The position numbers and the translations under genes were made by a program. A stretch of DNA of 64,000 nt from Malassezia japonica. Its lineage: Eukaryota; Basidiomycota; Malasseziomycetes; Malasseziales; Malasseziaceae. The notes under the pieces were generated by a model. It worked only from the letters and a program-made list of their open reading frames with translations. It did not search any database and was not told the origin of the DNA. The stretch spans positions 992,001 through 1,056,000 of the forward strand of contig NC_083371.1 of the NCBI RefSeq assembly GCF_029542785.1. The letters run 5' to 3'. This document shows, piece after piece, positions 45,933 through 61,400 of this stretch. Position 1 is the stretch's first letter. Each line of letters opens with the position of its first letter.

Positions 45933-46985
45933 TTATCTAGCGCTTTGTATCTATGTTTGGACTTTTCGCGCGCCTGGTCTTGGTAGCCCATAGCGCTCGT
46001 GGCGCTGTGCTCGGCAGTGTCGGCCATGCGCGTGCTTCCCAGGCCCGCACGCTGATGGCTCACGGCGGGCGTAATAGGGGCTTGCGTGGGAATATGGTCC
46101 GCACCGTCGGCCATCTTGGCCAGCAGCTGGTAGCCGACATTGGAGGCGTCCAGCGCCTTGGGTGGAGCGGCAGGAGGCGGCATATCCGGGCGGGGCACGT
46201 CGCGCTTCACGTCGGGCAGGCCGGGGTACCGTTCGCGGCGCAGCGAGGCGCGGTCGCGGTACGCAGGGCCGCCCACCGCCGAAATGCTCTTGGACTCGTC
46301 CGAGAGGGGGAGCGGCTTGAGGTAGACCTCCTTGAGGGCTTTGAGGTGCCGCTTGGTATCGAATTCCGCCTTTTGCTTGGCACTCTTGGCGGGTGGCGCA
46401 TTTTTCTGCACCCCGCAAGGCTTGTTTCGTTCGCCGGCCAGCGGTGCGAGCGAAATTTCATTCGCACCATCCGGCGAGAGCTGGCATGCGGGGCAGCTTC
46501 CCCACGCTGTGCCGTGCATGTGCACTTCAAACGCATTGCTCTGTACGCCGAACCGGATCACATCGAGGTGCTGCAAGGTAAACGGCCGGCTCGCGTGCTT
46601 GGCAGGCGACAGGCGCACAAACGCGTCGTTTGGAATCCTGGCGAGGCTATTCGGATGCATAGGTTTCGGCGACTCTTTTTTCGGGCGGTAGACAAACGTT
46701 CCATGCGTCGACCCTGTATCGGTCACCGAGAACGACGGCGGGAGATCCGGCTCCCGCTTCCGCACAATGGCAAAAATGCTCGCATGGTGCTTGCTCACCT
46801 CCATCGACGGCAGGCGGAGCCTTGGGGTATAGGTGCGGTCGCGGCCCTGCGTCAGCCGTGCGACGTACGATCGAGATTCCATCACGACGCCCATCCACGA
46901 GTGCGACGCGCTTTGCGCTCGGCAAGACATCCGACGCTAGCTTCACCAGCCGAATCTGTGCGTCCGCAGCTGGTGGTTCGTGCAT
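45929..46985 (-). CDS. FHA-domain protein with a degenerate G-patch (AGGF1-like)
   Basis: A 344-aa protein; exons 46985-46869 and 46846-45929, one 22-nt intron that splits the FHA domain. Spliced sequence LVDGRRDGISIGRDRTYTPRLRLPSMEVSKHHASIFAI gives the phosphothreonine-binding GR and SKHHA motifs. DTGSTHGTFV and HLDVIRFG complete the fold. Further on, PAYRDRASLRRERYPGLP resembles the linker of AGGF1-type proteins. NVGYQLLAKM and QRAGLGS are the two ends of a G-patch, but the central GW..G.GLG core is absent. A nuclear RNA or DNA-damage role is plausible by family; substrate partners are unknown. Confidence 0.78.
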
Positions 46986-47073
46986 GAGGATCGGCCGGCC
47001 ACACGCGCCACGCGCCGGTCGCGTGGTGACTTTGGCTCATATACGCTACCACTGCCTGTACTATACAACAACA

Positions 47074-47183
47074 GGCAAGGTGCCGGAGCGGTTAACGGGT
47101 ACGCCTCGAATTACAATTCGACACCGATTACGGTGGTAAGCGTATGGGCTATGCCCGCACAGGTTCGAGTCCTGTTCTTGTCG
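47074..47183 (+). tRNA. tRNA-Ser (anticodon CGA) with a 28-nt intron
   Basis: A type II tRNA folds cleanly. The acceptor stem is GGCAAGG (47074-47080) with TCTTGTC (47176-47182). The discriminator is G at 47183, as in serine tRNAs. The anticodon stem is TACGC (47100-47104) with GCGTA (47140-47144). The loop CTCGAA carries anticodon CGA at 47107-47109. The intron is 47111-47138, one base after the anticodon, and contains TTCGA, which can pair with the anticodon loop. The long variable arm has a GGGC/GCCC stem. The T arm is ACAGG-TTCGAGT-CCTGT (B box). A T-rich tract at 47185-47195 should terminate RNA polymerase III. It decodes UCG. Confidence 0.95.
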
Positions 47184-47184
47184 C

Positions 47185-47195
47185 ATTTCTTTTTT
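47185..47195 (+). terminator. RNA polymerase III terminator of tRNA-Ser
   Basis: A T-rich run (ATTTCTTTTTT) begins two bases after the mature tRNA end, with an uninterrupted block of six T. This is the usual polymerase III stop signal. Confidence 0.7.
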
Positions 47196-47284
47196 GCCGC
47201 GTTTCCTTAGAGTGGCACAATTGCAATTATTTGTATGTTGCGCGAAGAACCCTCGCCAGGGCCTTGGCTTTTTTTTGGTAGGAA

Positions 47285-49807
47285 ATGACCATGCGTGCAG
47301 TGCGTGGACTGCGCCCAGCAATGGCACAGCGTATGCCGGCCGTGCGGCCGCAGGTGGCGGGCGCGATGCGTGCAGCGTCCCTGCTCGCCGCCGCGCCGCG
47401 CCGCGCGGTACGCGTTCCGATGGCAAGCGCCGCCTCGGCACTCAACCTCCGCACCCTCGCGACCGAGGCCGACAGTGCTACCGGCAATGCCGCGCCGGTC
47501 GTGACCGAGGCAGACATTGCGCGCTTGCTCTGCCAGCGCAATGTCGGTATTAGCGCGCACATTGACAGCGGCAAGACGACGCTCACCGAGCGTGTGTTGT
47601 ACTACACCGGTCGTATCAAGGACATTCACGAAGTACGTGGCCGCGACGAGGTCGGTGCCAAGATGGACAGCATGGACCTCGAGCGTGAGAAGGGTATCAC
47701 GATTCAGAGCGCTGCTACCTACTGTAACTGGAAGGCTACGCCGCCGACCGAGCGCAGCAACATGACCGGCGACGCCGCCGACGTCAGCGAGATGACGAGC
47801 AAGAAGGAGGACTTCCACATCAACATCATCGACACGCCCGGCCACGTTGACTTTACCATTGAGGTTGAGCGTGCACTGCGTGTGTTGGACGGTGCTGTGC
47901 TCGTGCTGTGTGCCGTGTCGGGCGTGCAGTCGCAGACCATCACGGTCGACCGCCAGATGCGCCGCTACAACGTGCCCCGCCTGAGCTTCATCAACAAGAT
48001 GGACCGTGCTGGCGCGAACCCCTGGCGCGTGGTCGAGCAGATCCGCACCAAGCTGCGCATGCCCGCCGCTGCCGTCCAGGTCCCGATCGGCTCCGAGGAC
48101 AACCTCGACGGTCTCGTGGACCTTGTCCGCTGGAAGGCCGTGTACAACGAGGGGACCAAGGGCAACGTCGTGCGCGAGACGGACGACATCCCCGCCGAGG
48201 TGCTCGAGCTGGCACAGGCCAAGCGCCAAGAGCTCATTGAGCAGCTCTCGGACGTCGACGACGAGATGGCCGAGATCTTTATTGAGGAGCGTGAGCCGAC
48301 GATCGAAGAGCTCGCCGCCGCCATGCGCCGCGCGACCATCGCGTGCCGCTTCTCGCCGGTGTTCCTCGGTACGGCCATCAAGAACAAGGGTGTGCAGGCG
48401 CTGCTGGACGGTATGTGTGCCTATCTCCCCAACCCCATGGAGGTTCCGGCGATTGCCAACGACACGCAGCGTGCCAAGCAGATCGCCGCGCAGGCCACCG
48501 AGGAGGGCCAGACCAGCGACGCGGTCGTCGCCTCGGCGCAGACCGGCTCGGAGGTGGCGCTGGTCCCTGCGAGCGAGGCGCCGTTGGTCGGTCTCGCATT
48601 CAAGCTGGAGGAGAGCCGCTTCGGCCAGCTGACTTACATGCGTGTCTACCAGGGCCAGCTGCGCCGTGGTGGTATCATCTACAACTCGCGCACCGGCAAG
48701 AAGGTCAAGGTCCCGCGTCTCGTCCGCATGCACTCGAACGACATGGAGGACGTCGCGGAGATCGGCCCGGGTGAGATTTGCGCCATGTTCGGTGTGGAAT
48801 GCTCGTCGGGCGACACGTTCACTGACGGTAGCACCTCGCTGTCCATGTCGGCCATGTTTGTGCCCGAGCCGGTTATCTCCTTGTCGCTCGCGCCCGAGGG
48901 CAAGGACGGCAGCCAGAACTTCTCGCGCGCGCTGAACCGCTTCCAGAAGGAGGACCCGACGTTCCGCGTGCACGTCGACAGCGAGTCGGGCGAGACGATC
49001 ATCTCGGGTATGGGTGAGCTCCACCTGGAGATCTACGTCGAGCGTATGCGCCGCGAGTACAACGTGCCATGCACTACGGGCAAGCCGCGTGTCGCGTTCC
49101 GCGAGACGATCGCGCAGCCCGCCAAGTTCAACTACACCCACAAGAAGCAGACGGGTGGTGCAGGTCAGTTTGGTCGTGTGATTGGCTACATTGAGCCGAT
49201 GCGCGTCGACGAGGACACCGGCAAGGACACAGCGTTCGAGAACAGCGTCGTGGGTGGCAACATTCCCTCGGGCTACATTCCCGCCTGTGAGAAAGGCTTC
49301 AACGACGCCCTGGAGAAGGGCGCGCTCGCGGGCTACCCGGTGTGCGGTGTGCGCTTCGTGCTCGAGGACGGTGCGGCACACAGCGTCGACTCTTCGGAGC
49401 TTGCTTTCCGTATTGCGACCGTGGCTGCTTTCCGCGAGGCGTTCAAGAACGCACAGCCGGTGATCCTCGAGCCGAAGATGACCGTCGAGGTCGTGGCTCC
49501 GGTCGAGTTCCAGGGCGCGGTGATCGGCGCCTTGAACCAGCGCAAGGGTACCATTGAGGACACCGAAGTACGCGAGGACGAGTTTACGATCACCGCGGAG
49601 GTGTCTCTGAACGATATGTTTGGCTACTCGAGTCAGCGTACGTACATCCCGACTAACAGCAGTGCGCGGCCTGACGCAGGGCAAGGGCGAGTTCTCGATG
49701 GAGTACAAGAAGCACGAGCCGGTGATGCCGAACGTGCAGGCGGATATGCAGGCCGGTACGTTACATTGACTAACATAGCCTACCGCAAGAGCCAGGAGAA
49801 GAAGTAG
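47285..49807 (+). CDS. MEF1: Mitochondrial elongation factor G (Mef1)
   Basis: Mef1 is the mitochondrial translocase GTPase, 824 aa. Exons are 47285-49637, 49663-49755 and 49779-49807; introns are 25 and 23 nt. A basic, Ala/Arg-rich presequence of about 60 residues precedes [24 protein letters not shown]. The GTPase G3 is DTPGHVDF and G4 is [16 protein letters not shown] and [13 protein letters not shown] mark domains III-IV. Splicing the 3' end restores [22 protein letters not shown] and [15 protein letters not shown]. The first intron ends CTAACAGCAG; only the distal AG gives the conserved SSQLRG, so the proximal AG is skipped. Confidence 0.95.
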
Positions 49808-49888
49808 TGGATAGTTCTAACTATTCTGTTGCAAATAAATAGTGATGGGTGAGTGGTATCGGGGCAAATGAGTGGAATCGCGGCGCGC

Positions 49889-51269
49889 TCAAAGCGCGGG
49901 TTTTGCGGTGTCGCTTGCTTTGCTGTACCTTACCGCGACAAGGCGGTCGGCCAGCGAGGGACGCAACTGGAAGTATGCATTGTACCAAGGGTCACTTAGC
50001 AGCGGGACATTGAATGTACAATGCAGCTTGACTAGCGCGTGTACATAATGGTTGAGTTGCCAAGAGCCAGCGCGAGCGGCCACATTCGTGTCACTCTTGC
50101 CGTCGCCTTTGTAACTTTTCATTTCCTCCAAGACCGAGTTTTCGCATCGTTTCGCAAAGTCGCTGGGTAAGAACATACACGTACGAATCGCCCGAGAGGC
50201 TCGCTTTTTGTTCACAAAGATTGGCAAAAAAGTTGACCAAGACGAAAAGCGGGCGGAGAATTAGCATGACAAGAACAGCATTCACGGCTTGAAGGTGCGT
50301 GCCCGAAAGCCTTGCTTTTCCGAGAGACGCAAGACCAAATGCGCGGGGAATGTCTTTTTTTCCGACCTCCATAAAAGGAGACACAATGATAAGGAGCATA
50401 CCAAAGAAGAGGACATAGAGCAAAATTGTTTCAACAATGACAATGATAAACTTTGGACGACGCTCGAATTGCTTGATAGCTTCTTCTTCTTTGGGTGTCA
50501 GTTTCGCAACCTCTGGAATGGTTTCATCGACGACATCAAAAGGAAGTGGGAAAGGCGTGATAATTGGGAACGATGTCTTTTCAATGTCCAGTGCGCCGGC
50601 CGTGTGGATACGACCCAAATTTGACTCAAGTAGCCAGCCTGGGTCGAAATGCTTAAGATAACTTTGGAAAAGAGTCGAGATGATGGAGCCAAAAAAGAAT
50701 GCGACAATGAGAAAATCAGGGATAATCATACCAGGGAGATGCTTTTCATGTAACGTGCCCGTAACGATCAGGCACGCGCCAGCCAGGAGAGTAGGAAAGT
50801 CGAAGACATAAGATAAAAAGGGCTTTGGCTTGGGTGTCCCACTTTCCCGTGATAGTTCTTTCTCGCTCAGATAAAAGGGAATCCTCATTGGTACACATCC
50901 CAAAGCAAGAATAGAGAGCCATATTACGATTTGCCTCATGCCCGGGGAATCTTGGTTGGCTAGAGTTTGGCTCCATTCCCAGGTAACAGCCAACGCATCA
51001 AAGTAGAGGATCATGAATACAAATATCATGCGTACAGTCGCACATACAGTGCGCGTCTTGTACGTAGCCTCGAATCGCTTGGCGCTCGTCTTGTACTGTT
51101 CGGCGGTGACAGACGATTGGAGAACAGGAGGTATGGGCGCCGACTGCGCAACTCGAAGTTCTCTCCTAAGCAAAGTCATTTCGGTAGCCCATTCCACAAA
51201 AGTAGAACCGGCCACAAACCAGACCCAGTACGCCGCCGAGTCTTTTCGGGGATCCCACACTAATGGCAT
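49889..51269 (-). CDS. Ste24-derived membrane protein lacking the protease motif (copy A)
   Basis: A 452-aa multi-pass membrane protein, exons 51269-50185 and 50162-49889, one 22-nt intron. It aligns end to end with Ste24: WVWFVAGSTFVEWATEMTLLRREL matches the first helix, and ILYFDALAVTWEWSQTLA the second. Further, LTPKEEEAIK matches the residues before the zinc motif, RAFGLA is shared, and the C-terminal ALVKLH...LLSDPWYNAYFQLRPSLADRLVAV is clearly Ste24. Where STE24 has HELGH, copy A has FERRP-like sequence, and the third zinc ligand Glu is replaced by Ser (ASLSGD). The intron is at the same site and phase as intron 2 of STE24. Its DNA is AT-richer than its neighbours. It is most similar to copy B. 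Confidence 0.85.
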
Positions 51270-51334
51270 GATCTTGGCACGTAGTTAATGAGAATGTGGA
51301 GAGTGTTCGTTTCATGACTAATGCGCTTCCAGCC

Positions 51335-51347
51335 AGCGCACGGACCA
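51335..51347 (-). promoter_or_regulatory. 13-bp sequence shared by promoters of copies A and B
   Basis: AGCGCACGGACCA is 66 bp upstream of the copy A ATG; the identical 13-mer is at 52892-52904, 62 bp upstream of the copy B ATG. The first ten bases (AGCGCACGGA) also occur at 56097-56106, 16 bp upstream of STE24. This could be a co-regulatory element or simply retained duplicated sequence. Confidence 0.4.
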
Positions 51348-51533
51348 TACTGATTGTCTTGTATCAAGTTTCAAGAACGCATTACTGTTACGTAAAGAGC
51401 TTGATGGCGAGTTATCATTAGTTTGCCTGACTCTTCAAGGTATGTGGCATTATTAAGGTTGTCTCCGCCTACCTTGACATGTAGTACGATCGGGTAATCG
51501 AGCATGGAATAGCTTCCTAGAGAAAGGGGTCTT

Positions 51534-52830
51534 CTAGAGAGGGGTCTTGGCGTCTAGAGCCATCTCATTGCGGTACCCTAGTGCGACAAGTCGGTCGTAC
51601 AATGACGGCCGCAGCTGAAAGTACGCATTGTACCAAGGATCACTCAGCAGCGGAACATTGAGTGTGCAATGCAGTTTGACCAAGGCTTGAACATAGTGGT
51701 GCAGCTGCGAAGGGCCCGCGTTCAGTGTCGCTTCCATGTCTTGATTGCCACTGTTACTTTCTTCATCCTTGCCTTGCTTAGGTGGTTCACAGCACCTGGC
51801 AAACCCGCTGTGTGAGAATATGCACTTACGAATCACCTGACAAATCCGCCTTTTGCTCACAATATTTGCCAAGGAAGTAGACCGAGACCAAGACAGGGTG
51901 AAAGAATAGCAAGTCAAGTATAGCACTCGTAGCTAGAATGTGCAAAAAGATGAGAAGTGCGACGATGCAAATGAGAAGTAGCAAGGCAATTTCTGCAAAA
52001 GTAATAGATTTTTTTGGGCGAAATGTGCGTTGTTTAATGACTGTCTCCTCTTCTTCGGACGTCAGTTTCGCAATCTTTGGGATGGTTCCGTCGCCAGTAT
52101 CGAAAGGAAGGGGAAAGGGTGTGGTGATAGGGAAAGAAGACTTTTCAACGTCCAATGCACCTGCTGCATGTACGCGGAGGAGGTTAGATTTGAGCATCCA
52201 CTTTGAATCCAAATTTTTGCGATAACTCTCATTGAAGTTTGATAACACAAAAGAAGTAATGCCCCCAATAAAAGAAGCAGATACATTTATATCAGGAAGG
52301 AGTGTTCCGGGAAGAATTCTAGCACTCCCCAAACAGAACGCAGCAAGGACAGTGGGGAAGTCGAAAATGTAAGAGAGGAAGCCCTTTGGGCTGGGTGTTC
52401 TCCTTTTCTGCGATAGTTTTTGTTCACTCAGGTAAAGGGGAATCCTCATTGGTACACATCCCAATGCAAGAATAGACAGCCACACTACAATTCGTCTGAT
52501 CCCAGGGGTATCTTGGTTGGCGAGCATTTGGCTCCACTCCCAGGTAACAGCCAAAGCATCAAAGTAAAGAACCATGAAAACGAATATCATACGAGTAGTC
52601 GCACAGACCGTACGTGTCCTGTACGTCGCCTCGAATCGCTCCGCGCTTGTCTTGTACTGTTCGGGCGTTACAACCGATTGGAGAAGAGGAGGTACCGGTG
52701 CCGACTGGACGACGTGGAGTTGCCGCCTGAGCAAGATCATTTCCGTCGCCCATTCTAGAAATGCAGACCCGGCAATGAACCACACCCAGTACGCGGCGGA
52801 ATCCTGTCGTGGATCCCACTGCAAGGGCAT
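51534..52830 (-). CDS. Ste24-derived membrane protein lacking the protease motif (copy B)
   Basis: A 424-aa multi-pass protein, exons 52830-51830 and 51807-51534; the intron is 22 nt with a GTAAGT donor. It is the closest relative of copy A, starting MPLQWDPRQDSAAYWVWF against MPLVWDPRKDSAAYWVWF. Its second exon is 274 nt, the same length as that of copy A. The equivalent of the HEXXH site reads KQRTFRP, and the third ligand position is Asp (ADLSGD). The intron falls at the STE24 intron 2 position, phase 2. The Ste24 C-terminal signature LLSDPWYNAYFQLRPSLYDRLVAL is kept. The frame is intact, so it is not an evident pseudogene. In-frame ATG 52941 is possible but less likely, by alignment with copy A. 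Confidence 0.85.
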
Positions 52831-52891
52831 GATCTTGGTACGATCGACTCGGAATAAAAGTTCATGAATTACTAAATGGGCCGGTCGGTTG

Positions 52892-52904
52892 AGCGCACGG
52901 ACCA
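52892..52904 (-). promoter_or_regulatory. 13-bp promoter sequence of copy B, identical to that of copy A
   Basis: AGCGCACGGACCA, identical to 51335-51347 and at nearly the same distance from the start codon. See the entry for the copy A site. Confidence 0.4.
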
Positions 52905-52962
52905 ATGGGGATCGGCTCTGGCCGATGCAATCTGTATACAAGTCCTAATTCACATATTATAG

Positions 52963-54378
52963 TTAGGGCAAAAGCATAATTGACGGAACGGCGATATCGC
53001 TGTCCGACTCATCAAGGTAGGGCGTATCGACCTTGTCGTCTAAGCCCAGCTCCATGTCAACGGGTCCGAGCACGGCGAGGCGGTCGGCCAAGGCAGGGCG
53101 TTTCTGGTAGTAAGCGTTGTACAATGGATCGCTGAACAGCGGGACATTGCAAACAAGATATAATTTGACCAATGCTTGAACAAAGTGGCGCTTTTGCGCT
53201 CCACTGATCGCCGCTGCGTCGCCCGAATCGTAATCGATCCAGTCAGTGACCGGTTGGTCTTCTTCTTCGTTTGCCTCGAGCGTGCGAGCAAAGTCACTGG
53301 GTAAGCATAATGAAGATACGTACGCGTCCTTTTTAATTTCCAGCTTTTGGAAAACAACGTGCCGGGTCAAAATAGAAAAAATGCGCACAGGGCGAAGGAG
53401 CAGCAGCCCAAGGAAAATGCCGACCAGGACAGGCGGGTGCTCGATTACCCCATCTGCCCCTTCCTCGGCCGTGCCAAATCCGAATGCGCGGAAAAGCGTC
53501 GGGTCTTGATATACCAGCCAGAGATACCCAGTAATCCCGAAGGAATAGCCCATAAAGGTACACGAACTCACGAGGCCTTTCCAACGCGATTGCGTGTCGT
53601 GTTTGCGTACTGCCTTTGCTTCGGCAGAAGAGAGCTGTGCGAGAGTTTCCATATCCTCTGCAGGAATGCGCAACGGCAAATCGAGGTCATCCAAGTCCGT
53701 AGCGGCAGAAGCATGGAGGCGGCGTTTCGTATGCGACGCAAACCAGTCATGAGGGAACCCAGAGCCGAACGTGTAGTACACTCCAGTAAAAAATATAGCA
53801 ACAGACCCCGCTCCTGTACTGTCTTCAATAGACAGATCGTTCTGAAGAGATTCGCTCGAGTAGGCAAGGAGTGTGAGCCAACCGATGGCAAGCATGGTCT
53901 TGATATCAAAGATATAATTGACAAACGGCTTGGGCTTCTCCACCATGCCCTTTTGATACAGAAGCATCAGATTGAAATAGGCCACGAACTTCGGGAGAGC
54001 GCAAATAAGCGTCAGTAAAGCGACCCACGCCACGCTTTGAAAAAGTTGAGCGTTCGGAGCATTTCCTTCAACAAAGGCTCCGGCCCGGTTCCACAGCGCA
54101 CTGAGGCCGCCATCGAGCACAAAAAAGAAAACAAAGGCTGTGCGGAACGCAGCGTATATAAACCGCGTCGCATGCGTGATGCGGAAGCGTTCCGCGCTCG
54201 TAATAAAAGCCTCGGGCGCAATGTCACGTAGAACCGTGGGCACGCCCTTGGCCCTCGACAGTTTGAGTTGGCGATTGAGCAGAGTCGTCTCCATCAAGAA
54301 CTCGAGCGCCGTAATCACGGCTACGAGCCATGTCCAGAGCACAGCCGGGTCCTCTCGAGGATCCCACCGCAGGCCCAT
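52963..54378 (-). CDS. Ste24-derived membrane protein lacking the protease motif (copy C)
   Basis: A 462-aa multi-pass protein, exons 54378-53324 and 53296-52963. The 27-nt intron is a multiple of three, so the frame is open even unspliced, and it sits at the STE24 intron 2 position and phase. Copy C is the nearest neighbour of STE24 and the most Ste24-like: it keeps LFRAFGFGTAEEG, VTDWIDYDSGD against VVDWVDRLSN, FVQALVKLYL and the SDPLYNAYYQKRPALADRLAVL tail. The zinc site reads HDTQS in place of HELGH (first residue His260), and the third ligand Glu is still present (LEIKKDA). The start ATG 54378 aligns with copies A and B; 54429 would add 17 residues. CACGTG lies 26 bp upstream. Confidence 0.85.
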   Translation of the reverse strand: MGLRWDPREDPAVLWTWLVAVITALEFLMETTLLNRQLKLSRAKGVPTVLRDIAPEAFITSAERFRITHATRFIYAAFRTAFVFFFVLDGGLSALWNRAGAFVEGNAPNAQLFQSVAWVALLTLICALPKFVAYFNLMLLYQKGMVEKPKPFVNYIFDIKTMLAIGWLTLLAYSSESLQNDLSIEDSTGAGSVAIFFTGVYYTFGSGFPHDWFASHTKRRLHASAATDLDDLDLPLRIPAEDMETLAQLSSAEAKAVRKHDTQSRWKGLVSSCTFMGYSFGITGYLWLVYQDPTLFRAFGFGTAEEGADGVIEHPPVLVGIFLGLLLLRPVRIFSILTRHVVFQKLEIKKDAYVSSLCLPSDFARTLEANEEEDQPVTDWIDYDSGDAAAISGAQKRHFVQALVKLYLVCNVPLFSDPLYNAYYQKRPALADRLAVLGPVDMELGLDDKVDTPYLDESDSDIAVPSIMLLP

Positions 54379-54403
54379 GGTGTGGTTCGTCGCAAGCATT
54401 CGC

Positions 54404-54409
54404 CACGTG
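54404..54409. promoter_or_regulatory. CACGTG box upstream of copy C
   Basis: CACGTG lies 25 bp upstream of ATG 54378, in the 76-bp gap between copy C and the STE24 stop codon. Candidate bHLH site by position. Confidence 0.35.
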
Positions 54410-54454
54410 CAAGTCCAGAGTTCACTCATTTCGGCGATGACATAAGCTACGTGC

Positions 54455-56081
54455 CTATTGCGTCTTCTTGGAGTCCGCGAGGCGGTTCAGCGCCACGAGG
54501 CGTTCGGTAAGTGTGGGGTGAGAATAGTGGTAGGCACTGTAGAGCGGGTCATGGTGCATCGTCGAGAGACTGTGTGAAACAAGACACGTACTTTTGGATG
54601 TGCAACTTGACGAGCGCGCGGCCCAGCAGCTCAGTGTAGGGCTCCTGGTCCTCCGGCAAGGCCTCGCCAACCTTGTCGGTCGGCAGGCGGTGCACCGGCA
54701 CGTTGCTCAGGCGGTCGACCCAGTCGACGACCGTCGCGCTCGGCTCGCCCGCCTCGTCTGCCGTCGCGCCCGACTCAATCAGGCGCTGCGCCTCGCGCTC
54801 GGCCGCCGTCTTCGGCGCACGTGGCAGCTCCGCAGCAAAGCTAGGTCAGAGAGCGCAACGTACCGATCCGCGGCGTACTCCATGCGGCGTACGATCGCAT
54901 TGATGCCGAACTTGAGCAGGGCGTCCGTAGGGTTAAGCACGAGCTGGAAGAGCTCGAGGCCGACAATCACAGGGAGGTAGGGCTCGACGGCGATCGCGCC
55001 CGGCGAGGCTTTCGTCGCAAAGCCAAACGCACGGAAGAGCGACGCGTTGTGGATGAACAACGTAAAGAGCGAGAGCATCAGCACGAGGTTCAGCTGCGAG
55101 ACGATCAGCAGTTTGGTCGGGTCCGAGTGCGCCCAGTGGCCGAGCTCGTGGGCGAGCACCGCCTCGATCTCGGCCGGCGTCGACTTTTCGATGAGCGTGT
55201 CGTAGATGACTGGGTCAGATGCAAAACGTACCGATGTGCTTGCTGCCGCCCGGGACCACACCGTAAAAGTAGGCGTTCGAGTGGCTGCTGCGCTTGCTGC
55301 CGTCGATCACGTACAGGTGCTTGAGCGGGAAGTTGAGCGCACTCGCAAGCGCCACGACGCGGTCGCGCAGCGCGCTCTCCGGCAGCGGCGTGAGCTTGTT
55401 AAAGAGCGGCTGGATGACCAGGGGGTAGAGCACGGTGCCAAAAAGGATGATCAGCGTAAAGAGCAGCACGGTGTACAAGACAAAGTAGTCGCCCGCCCAG
55501 CGGATCACCCACACCGCGAGCGCGATGAGCGGCGTTCCGATCACGATGCCCATCGCCCACTCCTTCAGCGTGTCCGAGACGTAGGTGCTAAAGGTGAGCT
55601 TGTTGAAGCCATGGCGCTCTTCGATGACAAAGTGGCGGTAGATGCTCAGCGGCACGGCGATCACCTCGTGCATCGCCGTGTTCACCACGACCCACATCGC
55701 CGACTTGGCCAGCTCATTGTCCGGCGCGCCCACCAACGCAAGCAGGTCGCCCGCCCAGACCCACGCGAGCGCGTAAAAGTCAAAGTACACCGCAGCGAGG
55801 TTGTAAGCATGCGCAAACGCGTCCGACACGAGCGACAGGCGCGCCTTGTCCTTGCCGTACGCCTGGCTCTTGACAAACGTGTCCATCGACACGTGGGGCA
55901 CGAGTGCCTTGGGCGGCGTCGTCTTGTCGTACAGCCGCAGCTGACGCAGGGACACAAAAGTCTCGAAGAGGTAGACGGCCCATAGCAGCGTGATCACGAG
56001 CTGCTTCCACGGGATCCCATCCGAATCGAGATAGGCAGTGCCCGATTTCAGCTCGCTCACAGCCTGGTCGAGCCACGTCAT
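54455..56081 (-). CDS. STE24: CaaX prenyl protease Ste24 (M48 zinc metalloprotease)
   Basis: Ste24 cleaves the -aaX end and the N-terminal extension of prenylated proteins such as a-factor, in the ER membrane. Exons are 56081-55232, 55209-54864, 54840-54592 and 54569-54455, giving 519 aa; introns are 22, 23 and 22 nt. The zinc motif AHELGHWAHSD has His304, Glu305 and His308; the third ligand is Glu394 in RRMEYAADRFA. SSHSNAYFYGVVPGGSKHIVIYDTL, upstream of the motif, is complete. Seven or more hydrophobic segments and the C-terminal HHDPLYSAYHYSHPTLTERLVAL are as expected. It is the apparent parent of the three downstream copies and is intact. Only 49 bp separate it from the ligase stop. Confidence 0.95.
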
Positions 56082-56130
56082 TGTTGTAGTGGAGAGAGCG
56101 CACGGATGGAATTTCGAAAATAGCCCGATT

Positions 56131-58375
56131 CTACCAAAATCCGTCATCGTCGTCACGGCCCCGATCTTTTTTACTCGCGACGGCCTGGGCGCGGTACATG
56201 TCGGCGATCTGCTCCGGGCTCGTGGACTCTTCCGGGGTCTTGTCGTCGCGGATGCCTGGGTGAGTCTGGCGACGTACGGATGAAGCGGGGGAAGCGCAGC
56301 GAGATGCCGCGCGCGTCAATCATGCCTTTCGCCGCGCTGTACACCGGGCTCAGCGACAGGTCGGCGGTGAGGACCTCCCAGACGACCTTGGCTTCGAAAA
56401 AGACGTCGGGCTTGGCGTCGCCAACGTCATAGTAGCCTTTCTTGGCCGGAATTTCAAGCGCTTTGAGCGTGCTGTGGTGCGACTCGAGATCGGCCTCGGA
56501 GAAGCCGGTGCCGATCTTGCAGATACTCTGGTAGGTCTCTTGGTCCTCGTCGTCTGTGTCAGTAGAGCGACGTACAGCAAGCCAGGAGGAAGGCGCCATA
56601 GACATTGGTGCGCTTGCCCTTGCCGTAGTACCCTCCAATCACGGTCAGGTCGAGACTGTCGCCGGTGCCGGACACTGGGTGAGCATGACGACGTACAGTA
56701 ATCCTTTTTCAGCTTGAGCCAGTTGATCGAGCGGCGGCTCGGCTCGTACGTCGCATCCGCGCCATTGAGCATTTTGACCATGAGTCCTTCGCACCCGCTC
56801 GCCACACTCTCGTCCAGAAACGTCTGGATCTCCTCGGTGGTGTGGCAGTCGCGGTGCGTCGCGATATCAAACTCGTCCTGCACTGCGGCAAAGTGCTCGA
56901 GCAGCCGTGCGCGGCGCTCCGCGAGCTCGAGGTGCAGCAGCGGCTCGCCGTTCAGATAGAGCAGGTCGAACGCAAAGATCTTGACAAAGACCTTGATATC
57001 CTCGGCCTTGACGTCCTTGCGCTTCCTGCGGCTCAGCTCCTGGAACGGCAGGAGGCGCCCTTCCGTCGCGTCGCTGCGCTCGGCCTGGGCGACGTGTAGC
57101 GGCTGCCATGCCACCGCCTCGGCGTCGAGCACAAAGTTGGTCACCGAGTCGCGCAGGCAGCGCGGAATCTGCACGACCAGGTCGGGGTATTTCATGCTCA
57201 TGTCCTCCGAGTTGCGCGAAAAGACGCGCACTTCGAGCTTGCCGCTCGGCGTGCGGAAGCCGTGGACCTGCGCGCGCTCGCCATCGTACTTGTACTCGCA
57301 CGTAAAGGTCTTGTCCTCGAAACGGTCGAGCACCTCGCCAATCTCTTTCGTGGGCTTCGCCAGCATGGGCTTGAGCGGGATGCCGGGCGTGAGCTTGACG
57401 CGCTCACGCAGCCCGTCGATGCCGTGCTCGAGGACCGCAGGCACCACAATATCGTACGATGGGAGCTCGCTAAAGACGGCCTTGACGACATTGGTGCCGT
57501 GCTCGAGGTGCGCGGCGAGGTCCTCTTTTTCCATCTCGGCGGCCTGCTCGCCGAGCGAGGCAAGCATCACGGCGTGCGCAACGGCGACCAGCACCGTTTT
57601 TTCTGCGAGGCCAATACGCAGCTTGCCTTCGAGACTGCGGATCAGGTACTTGCTCTCGTCGCCCGTGCACGACGCAAGCAGGCGCTTGATAATGCCGAGC
57701 TTCTTGTCCTGCGACTTGGCGCCGGCCGCGCGTGCAATCTCTTTGAGCTGCTTAAAGACGGCCGGGACGGTGAGCGTCTGCGCCTGGAACATGGTCGGCT
57801 GGTGCTTGCGCGAGGCGAGGGCGACCAGGCCCAGATCGCCTTTTGCCTCGAGGTCTTTTTTGATGCGTGCAATTTCGCGCCCGGTGCTCTGTGCGATGGC
57901 CTTGACGAGGAGGCCCTCGCCGATGCCGAGCTCCAGCCCTTCATAGTCAGGGCACAGGCGGTTGATGCACAGGTAGACGGCATACAGCAGATTCTCGCTC
58001 GCCGCCGCGACACTATCTTGGCGGCAGTGCGTAATGACCTGCACAAAGAGGTCTGTGACGTATTGCAGAATCTCGAGACGCTTTGTCGTCGCCTCGACTT
58101 TGGAAAAAGTATCGACGAGCGTCGCATACTTGATCGGCGTGCCCTGCTTCCAGCCCGGCTTGGCCGACGGGCGCAGCGACGCGCTCTGGATGAGGTCGGC
58201 AGTCTTTTCGGCCGCGACGGTCTCCTCCTGCTCCTCCCGCTCCTGCTCCTGCTCCTGCTCCTTCTCCTTCTCCTCCTGCTCCTTCTCTACACGTGCGCGC
58301 TTCTGCGCAGGCTCCGGCGCAAAGAGCGATCTGGGTCAGCCAGCACACCTACTCCAACGTCCTTTGCTTCGCCAT
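56131..58375 (-). CDS. CDC9: ATP-dependent DNA ligase I (Cdc9)
   Basis: The replicative ligase that seals Okazaki fragments. Exons are 58375-58353, 58330-56697, 56674-56576, 56553-56278 and 56255-56131, giving 718 aa; all four introns are 22 nt. The N-terminus [13 protein letters not shown] contains a PCNA-interaction (PIP) box, split by the first intron. A Glu/Lys/Gln-rich helix follows. The adenylated lysine is in [14 protein letters not shown] (Lys355). [22 protein letters not shown] sequence and EGLMVKML complete the nucleotidyltransferase motifs. Splicing the 3' end gives [51 protein letters not shown], and [20 protein letters not shown], all typical of the OB-fold end. Confidence 0.96.
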
Positions 58376-58414
58376 AAGGAACGCGTCGCGGCGCGTCGCG
58401 CAACACTTTATAGC

Positions 58415-58420
58415 CACGTG
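58415..58420. promoter_or_regulatory. CACGTG box between CDC9 and SMC2
   Basis: The box is 39 bp upstream of the ligase ATG and 43 bp upstream of the SMC2 ATG, almost centred in an 88-bp divergent promoter. It could co-regulate two S-phase/mitotic chromosome genes. Candidate bHLH site. Confidence 0.45.
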
Positions 58421-58463
58421 ATCCGTTCGCATAAACACTTGGCCGGAGCGACCGTGCGGGGCG

Positions 58464-61400
58464 ATGCGGATCGAGGAGCTGATTCTCGATGGCTTCAAGA
58501 GGTACGTGGCGCGACTAACGCAGCTACCCCGTCCGGACGCATGTCCGTGGCTTTGACCCGAGTTTCAACGCGATCACAGGCCTAAATGGCAGTGGCAAGA
58601 GCAATATTCTCGATGCAATCTGCTTCGTGCTTGGCCTGACGAACCTGAGCTCGGTACGTGGCGCGGCTAACGCAGGTGCGCGCGTCGAATATCCAGGACC
58701 TGATCTACAAGCGCGGCCAGGCGGGCGTGACCAAGGCCTCGGTCACGATCGTCTTTGACAATACCGACCGCGAGCGCTCGCCAGTGTCGTTTGAGAACTA
58801 CACGACAATCACCGTCACGCGCCAGATCGCGATGGGCGGCGTGTCCAAGTACCTGATCAATGGACACAAGGCGACGCAGCAGGCCGTCCAAAACATGTTC
58901 CAGAGCGTGCAGCTGAACATTAACAATCCCAACTTTTTGATCATGCAGGGCAAGATTACCAAGGTACTCAACATGAAGCCCGCCGAGATCCTCTCGATGA
59001 TCGAGGAGGCGGCGGGCACGCGCATGTTTGAGGAGCGCAAAGAACGCGCGTTCCGTACCATGGCCAAAAAGGACCAAAAGGTGCGCGAAATCACCGCGCT
59101 TCTCCAGGAGGAAATCACACCGAAACTCGACCGACTCCGTGAAGAAAAGCGCGCGTTCCTCGAATACCAGAAAGCCTCGACGGAGCTCGAGCGGCTCACC
59201 CGCCTCGACAAGGCACACGAGTGGCATACGCTCCGCGGAAAACTCGCGCAGCGCACCAACGACGGCGCGGGCTCCGCCAAGGCCAAGCTTGCGGAGCACG
59301 TCGCGAACATCGCCGCATTCACGCGCCAGCTCGCTGCGATCGACGAGGAGCTCGCTGCGCTCCGCTCAAAGCGGGACGCAGAGCTCGAGGCAAGCGGGCA
59401 GCAGGACTCGCTGCTCGAAAAGGCCAAGAACCTCGCGCACGAGCTCGTCGAGGCCACGACTCAGGCCGAGTTCCGCCGCGCGGCACACGCCGAAGAGGCC
59501 GCGCGCGTCGAGACGGAGCGTGCGGCCCAGACTGCCGCCCAGGAGGCGCTGACGAACGAGCAGGCGTCGTTCGACACGCTGCGCGCCTCGTTCGACGAAA
59601 ACAAGTCGGCGCACGACGCCGCGGCCAAGCGCGCGGCCGAGACGGATGCGCTGCTCCAGTCGCTGCTCACGGGTATCGCCTCGGACACGGACGGAGCGCA
59701 CGGCGGTTTCCAGGGCCAGCTCGCCCGCTCGCGCTCGCGCGAGGCCGACGCGCGCTCCGAAATCCAGCAGGCCAAGGTCCGCATGGACCATCTCCAGCGT
59801 GAGCTGCGCAAAAAAGAGCCGCTTGCGCAGCAAGAGACCGGAGAGAGTGCCGGCCTCGTCGCCGGGCTCGAGTCGGCGCAGCGCGAAGCTCGCAAAGCGC
59901 ACGACGGCGTCGAGCGCCTCGGTTGGGACCAGCACAAGTACGACGGCCTCGCTGCCGAGCGTACCGAGCTGGAAGGACGCGTGGCGCACCTACGCGCCGA
60001 GCGCGACTCGCTCCAGGGCCGCCTCCCGTCGGCGCTGCAGTTTACGTACGTGGACCCCAGCGCCAACTTTGACCGGTCCAAGGTCCGTGGCCTGGTCGCG
60101 AGCCTCGTCACGCTCGACAAGGCGCACCGCGCGTATGCGCCTGCGCTCGAGGCGGCCGCCGGCTCGCGGCTGTACAATGTCGTGGTCGACGACGACAAGA
60201 CCGGCTCGCAGCTCCTGACGCATGGCCAGCTCAAGAAGCGCGTCACGCTCATTCCCCTGCGCCAGATCCAGCCGAGCATCGCCGACGGGCGGCGCGTCGA
60301 CGCGGCGAAGCGCCTTGCGCCGAACAAGGTCGAGCTGGCGCTGGAGCTCGTCGGATGCGACAGCGAGGTGCGTGCCGCGCTCGAGTACGTCTTTGGCCAG
60401 ACGCTCGTGTGCAAAGATGCCGAGACGGCGCGCCGTGTGACGTTTGACGCGGCTGTGCAGATGAAGAGCGTCACGGTCGACGGCGACACGTACGATCCCG
60501 CCGGCCGCCTCGCAGGCGGCAGCCGCACCGGCGGCGGCCAGAGCGTGCTGCTGCGCATGCAGGAGCTCGCCCACTGCGAGCGTGCGCTGCGCGAGGCGCA
60601 GGACGCGCTGCGTGCGAACGACCGCGAGTGGAGCGCGCTGCAAGAAGCGCGGCGCGCCTATAGCCAGGCCTCGGAAAAGGCCGAGCTTGCGCAGCACCGC
60701 GCGCGCCTCCTCCAGACGCAGGTCGACCAGAGCCGTGCGACGGTGCTGCAGGAAGAGGTGCAGGCGTGCCGTGCGGCGCTGGCCGAGCTTGAGGCCAGCA
60801 TGGATGCGGCGCGCGCGCGCCAAGACGAGGCTGCGTCGGATGCGAAGCGTCTCGAGCGCGAAATTCAAGAGCTGCATGCCGACAAAGGCGGCAAGGTCGA
60901 GCGTGTGCGTGCGGAAGCCAAGGAGCTCAAGGCCGAGCTCGCCAAGCACGCCGCGGCGCTCAAGCCGCAGCAAAGCAAGCTGCGTGCCGCCGAGCTCGCC
61001 CTTGGGCAGCACGAGATGGACCGTGACGCGGCCGCCGAGCGCCTCGCCGCTGCGCAAGAGGCTGCTGCACAGGCCGCGGCGGATCTCGAGGCGGGCGAGG
61101 CGCATGTCGCCTCGCTCCAGGCGGCGGTCGACCAGAGCGAGGCGGAGCTCGCCGAGTCGCGTGCGGCCCTCCGCGCCTTCCAAGACGAGCTCACGGAGCT
61201 CGAGAATGCGTCGGCGACCAAGCGTCAGGCGGTTTCCGATGCCGAGATCGCGCAGCAGCAGCTGGCGCACGAAGTCGAGCGCGTGGAGCAAGAGTGCCGT
61301 GCGCTGGAGCGTTCGGTCGCCGCGCTGGAAGAGGAGCACCCGTGGATTGCGTCCGAGCACACGCTCTTTGGCCAGGCCGGCAGCGCGTACGAGTTTGAGA

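Follow-up and report, generated by a model that had tools for sequence, protein, structure and literature searches.

Next to the gene for the membrane protease Ste24 of Malassezia japonica lie three further genes, here called copies A, B and C, which we studied in a stretch of 64,000 nucleotides (the window; positions 992,001 to 1,056,000 of NC_083371.1) and which, as judged by their sequences, are very probably Ste24 paralogues that are both dead as proteases and kept by selection. The window sits on contig C2 of the genome that we searched (8.43 Mb in nine contigs); passages of PMC7025860 give the species nine predicted chromosomes and 62.35% GC. The four genes form a head-to-tail array on the minus strand and are transcribed in the order STE24, C, B, A. 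STE24 (56081-54455) encodes 519 amino acids ending in SKKTQ, with HELGH (codons at 55136..55150 by sequence and gene model) and EYAAD intact, and its gene model has three introns (55231-55210, 54863-54841 and 54591-54570). It is followed by copy C (54378-52963; 462 amino acids; one 27-nt intron, 53323-53297), which an in-frame ATG upstream at 54399 would lengthen by 7 residues, copy B (52830-51534; 424 amino acids; one 22-nt intron, 51829-51808) and copy A (51269-49889; 452 amino acids; one 22-nt intron, 50184-50163). None of the four reading frames is interrupted, and each of the six introns has GT-AG borders, which bears out the preliminary description of three intact copies adjoining STE24.

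The six introns are just 22-27 nt in length, running from gtacgt or gtaagt to ag. Since a review of Malassezia mentions very short introns in the genus (PMC7426719, in part) and an annotation of M. restricta set the intron minimum at 20 (PMC6473144, likewise in part), such tiny introns are probably normal for Malassezia. The window's strongest GC trough, at 50001-54000, coincides with A-C, with 0.47-0.52 per kb vs 0.56-0.72 in every other kb.

By BLAST against STE24, copy C gives an E value of 1e-9, and the matches of A (9e-4) and B (4e-4) are each restricted to the last 46-49 residues. Compared as profiles (hhalign), A-C (three sequences) and 26 Ste24s, chosen from the best 120 of the 7998 proteins under the threshold in a search with STE24, align over 403 columns (98.8%, E 8e-17), and the A-C profile run against the PDB returns Ste24p (4il3) at E 7e-7, the next match being at 0.28. 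The alignment along the full length of Ste24 that had first been proposed therefore holds by profiles but not by plain BLAST, and profile searches do return Ste24, as had been anticipated. The Pfam domain M48_N (PF16491; 4e-54 in STE24) is matched over its cut-off by A (2e-7) and B (7e-7) and below it by C (0.0018), in each case over about half of the profile. Peptidase_M48 (PF01435; 8e-38 in STE24) was not listed for A, B or C at a maximum E of 10, and the remaining Pfam families stay below cut-off on the three copies, the best being DUF4153 (0.0074, in A).

The single intron of each copy coincides in place and phase with intron 2 of STE24, which follows the Asp of EYAAD; the copies have no counterpart of its other two introns. 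The intron site of C is read through in the database protein P0003, and P0008, a relative of STE24, carries read-through inserts at 3/3 STE24 intron positions. Strong hydropathy segments number six in A, six in B, four in C and six in STE24. By the profile and BLAST matches and the common intron, A, B and C are Ste24 homologues and paralogues, with a likeness beyond chance. Searches of the genome with A, PF16491 and P0003 found A, B, C and STE24 only; P0003 as an extra copy within M. japonica was thereby rejected. A second M48-family gene, on contig C1 (77644-78150), has a PF01435 match without a PF16491 match and is perhaps, we presume, OMA1-like.

The catalytic site is where the copies part from the family. 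Where the best 120 STE24 matches carry a name, it is mostly that of a basidiomycete, and 107 of the 120 have a complete C-terminus by pattern; HExxH is present in 107/107 and SNA[YF]F likewise in 107/107, against 0/3 copies for either. At the positions of STE24 H304, E305, H308 and E394, three MAFFT modes place F, E, a gap and S in A, Q, R, a gap and D in B, and H, D, S or a gap, and E in C. The earlier assignment of the third-ligand Glu (Ser in A, Asp in B, still Glu in C) is thus the same in all three modes. None of A-C combines HExxH with the third-ligand Glu, as an active protease does; A retains the Glu at E305, and C, which appears to be the least eroded of the copies at the zinc site because it retains the first His (H304) and the third Glu (E394), has those two only. 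The D170-E297 stretch comprises 127 residues in STE24, 104 in A, 103 in B, 95 in C and 93 in P0003, so that the part ahead of HELGH is shorter by 23-32 residues in A-C, at a site that varies with the aligner. While the motifs that the preliminary description read in place of HELGH are correct, the change is therefore no simple replacement. The substrate-side motifs SNAYF, HGFNK and QPLFN are mostly gone along with the zinc site. In 108 columns no fewer than 26 of 27 Ste24s have the same residue, and of these columns A keeps 35, B 33, C 33 and P0003 34. The positions of D398 and R505 are retained.

Purifying selection acts on A and B. Between them the NG86 method gives a nonsynonymous divergence (dN) of 0.256 and a synonymous divergence (dS) of 1.45, and codon-based maximum likelihood gives a dN/dS ratio (omega) of 0.241 at a dS of 1.15, with twice the log-likelihood difference (2dlnL) against omega 1 at 110; by segment, omega is 0.155, 0.275 and 0.231. 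For pairs with C, omega 1 was likewise rejected (2dlnL 42-61), and the values were left unused, synonymous change being saturated and the A/C estimate degenerate. When A was simulated as evolving neutrally, with four settings, 1/4000 runs remained without a stop.

The database holds near-identical proteins for each gene: P0005 differs from A at 3 of 362 residues (first exon only; a fourth listed difference is an end artefact), P0002 from B at 6 of 334 (first exon only) and P0001 from C at 1 of 462, and these are probably strain alleles. The closest to STE24 among the matches listed is P0016 (99%, first exon), with 3 differences in about 283 residues and two more in its read-through tail. There are also more distant relatives: P0006 is 88.2% identical to A over 363 residues (first exon), P0003 is 64.1% identical to C over 460 residues and open, and P0007 is 72.1% identical to B over 219 aligned residues, with about 30 residues that B does not have. 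When both are read through the intron, P0006 and A stay colinear by eye across some 60 codons, which means that the length of the intron and the beginning of the second exon are conserved. As putative dead Ste24 paralogues kept by selection, A and B are well supported and C is a likely case, the support for C being its open relative at 64% and the near-identical P0001. Of the initial proposal that the copies are selected rather than decaying, the expected dN/dS below 1 was thus found for A/B, and for C the argument passes through P0003.

The family has so far been met in few sources. Two database searches with A-C (E 1e-3 and E 1, each scoring about 8000 candidates) returned four proteins each, one of them in common and seven in all, of which P0004 alone is species-named, as M. 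japonica; these searches need common five-residue words, and remote relatives could escape them. Named Ste24s are present in the database from M. psittaci, M. obtusa, M. pachydermatis, M. equina, M. cuniculi and Malassezia sp. CBS 17886, but conservation of the copies across named Malassezia species, which had been proposed as a check, was not seen among the seven proteins that the five-residue-word search related to them. In a tree of 24 rows (A, B, C, P0003, P0006, STE24 and 18 other Ste24s, with P0001, P0002, P0004, P0005 and P0007 left out), A-C and their relatives separate from the 19 Ste24s at 100/100, and reading A-C as a single clade presumes that the root does not lie among them. The two groups are joined by a branch of extreme length (2.88 on one side of the drawing root and 5.08 on the other), too long for the position of the copies to be read from the tree or for the duplication to be dated by it.

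The A-C genes are poorly annotated. P0004 (MJAP1_001675, NCBI, 273 amino acids) is made up wholly of segments identical to copy C (residues 1-102, 131-191 and 353-462), is spliced otherwise than our model with an identical last acceptor, and omits 189 of the 462 residues. Searches of the protein database with A and B returned no species-named M. japonica protein. No Ste24 named as M. japonica stands among the 120 listed STE24 matches (best 120 of 7998) either; the NCBI model of this gene may be in error or have dropped out through clustering. The array is flanked by a plus-strand EF-G-like gene ending near 49807 and by a DNA-ligase-like gene, both labels being our reading of the sequence. In M. 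obtusa, MOBT1_000132 (P0011) joins the Ste24 domains to two further Pfam domains, which we take to be those of DNA ligase; this hints that two gene models were merged and that STE24 and the ligase gene are conserved neighbours. A search of 46500-58500 for non-coding RNAs found none at gathering scores.

Outside the catalytic region the copies appear to have acquired new ends. Dilysine tails return proteins to the endoplasmic reticulum (ER); STE24 has one (SKKTQ), as do 76 of the 107 complete Ste24 matches (KKXX in 71, KXKXX in 5), whereas the final residues are AKPAL in A, AKTPL in B and IMLLP in C, none of them with a dilysine. Because this tail is lost, A-C may do at least part of their work outside the ER, at odds that we put a little short of even. 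Identities between C and P0003 amount to 127/160 at residues 1-160, 44/118 at 161-280, 69/120 at 281-400 and 55/62 at 401-462; by this comparison, constraint in C appears to have shifted away from the old core and towards the two ends. Residues of about 427-462 of C (about 53073-52966 of the window) are nearly identical in P0003, at an overall identity of 64%, with an acidic stretch followed by SIMLLP, and the tail is a possible sorting or binding motif.

We therefore read A, B and C as neofunctionalised, non-proteolytic membrane proteins that would form one family of dead Ste24s, possibly outside the ER, with a probability of roughly 0.6. Tandem duplication of STE24 would have given the ancestor of the copies, which would have lost the protease core before the C type and the A/B type split, A and B separating later still. 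Parts of the membrane half and the C-terminal domain would have been retained as a binding scaffold with new ends, and the proteins would act without cutting, at least partly beyond the ER. A non-cutting role other than the regulation of STE24 is what we lean towards. The fuller version, in which the catalytic core was stripped from the membrane scaffold and the scaffold re-used as a non-proteolytic family of some other compartment (the Golgi, the plasma membrane or the vacuole), A/B serving one role and C another, is offered tentatively.

Several observations weigh against this reading. Within the 4il3 match no single stretch is significant by itself (best 0.073), and a structure of A predicted from six sequences was unusable (mean pLDDT 42.6). 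The openness of the database proteins partly follows from how such proteins are predicted. The third-position GC content (GC3) is 0.52-0.60 in A-C vs 0.87 in STE24, which may mean weak expression, and 31 of the 107 complete Ste24 matches likewise have no dilysine. Finally, A and P0006 share 151/160 residues at 201-360 and 135/160 at 1-160, a pattern opposite to that of C and P0003; the constraint has therefore shifted differently in the two types, and the copies need not have one common role.

Among the other explanations, the one that survives best makes A-C binding partners of STE24 or of its prenylated substrates that tune CAAX processing, pheromone maturation included. It takes iRhoms, pseudoproteases that act on rhomboid pathways, as its analogy, and we consider it unlikely, though not implausible. 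The copies descend from STE24 and adjoin it, C has a well-conserved N-terminal membrane half, and a 9-bp element, TCCGTGCGC, lies on the minus strand upstream of A (51336..51344, inside the 12-mer GGTCCGTGCGCT common to A and B), B (52893..52901) and STE24 (56098..56106), as located by motif search. These are three of six TCCGTGCGC sites in the window, where 2.5 are expected and 5/100 shuffles reach six, so that the element weakly points to transcription. GGTCCGTGCGCT as a genome-wide motif was rejected (14 sites vs 10 for the reversed control). An iRhom-like action by way of the catalytic cleft is, however, weakened because SNAYF, HGFNK and QPLFN are mostly lost and not the zinc ligands only. 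Loss of the dilysine would moreover separate A-C from the ER-located STE24, and the pheromone receptor STE3 is on another contig (matches on C3, the window being on C2), which led us to reject linkage of the array to the receptor.

We find it improbable that A-C are catalysis-independent guard proteins of the ZMPSTE24 kind, duplicated and diverging under a conflict such as that with mycoviruses of Malassezia. Malassezia harbours mycoviruses, and the family is tandem, very diverged and so far found in few sources. ZMPSTE24 restricts several viruses without catalytic activity, according to passages of PMC9601121, but selection on A/B is on average purifying and not positive. That the copies are decaying pseudogenes open by chance would fit the GC trough, the low GC3 and the lost catalytic motifs, but is very improbable given the A/B omega, the open frames, the handful of differences from the near-identical proteins, the open relatives P0003, P0006 and P0007 and the single stop-free run among the neutral simulations of A.

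If A-C are neofunctionalised scaffolds, natural copies with membrane parts but no scissors could reveal what the Ste24 scaffold does alone. Ste24 cleaves within a large membrane chamber seen in crystal structures. The same question is posed by the catalysis-independent antiviral role of ZMPSTE24 (PMC9601121, in the passages available). The open-licence literature searched yielded no all-dead Ste24 array from a fungus, and in the available text of the genus-wide Malassezia study PMC4634964 no passage concerns M48 or tandem copies, those on CAAX dealing with Rce1-type proteases.

Set beside Ste24 and ZMPSTE24, A-C have in common about 400 homologous columns, an intron position, part of the M48_N domain and the D398 and R505 positions, but they have neither HExxH, SNAYF, a PF01435 match nor a dilysine tail, and their core is shorter. 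With iRhoms and other pseudoproteases they share the state of dead paralogues of a membrane protease; those, however, belong to another protein family. Dead Ste24 paralogues as such are already known, since Drosophila has them: passages of PMC3362292 describe the fast-evolving paralogues CG9000, CG9001, CG9002, CG7573 and CG30461, some of them in tandem. The likeness lies in additional, fast-evolving Ste24 copies in tandem with dead paralogues among them. According to the same passages, however, the three tandem copies of the fly retain HEXXH, and it is the distant CG7573 that is altered at the active site and CG30461 that stops before HEXXH, whereas in the fungus M. japonica all three extra copies appear dead and their core is shortened.

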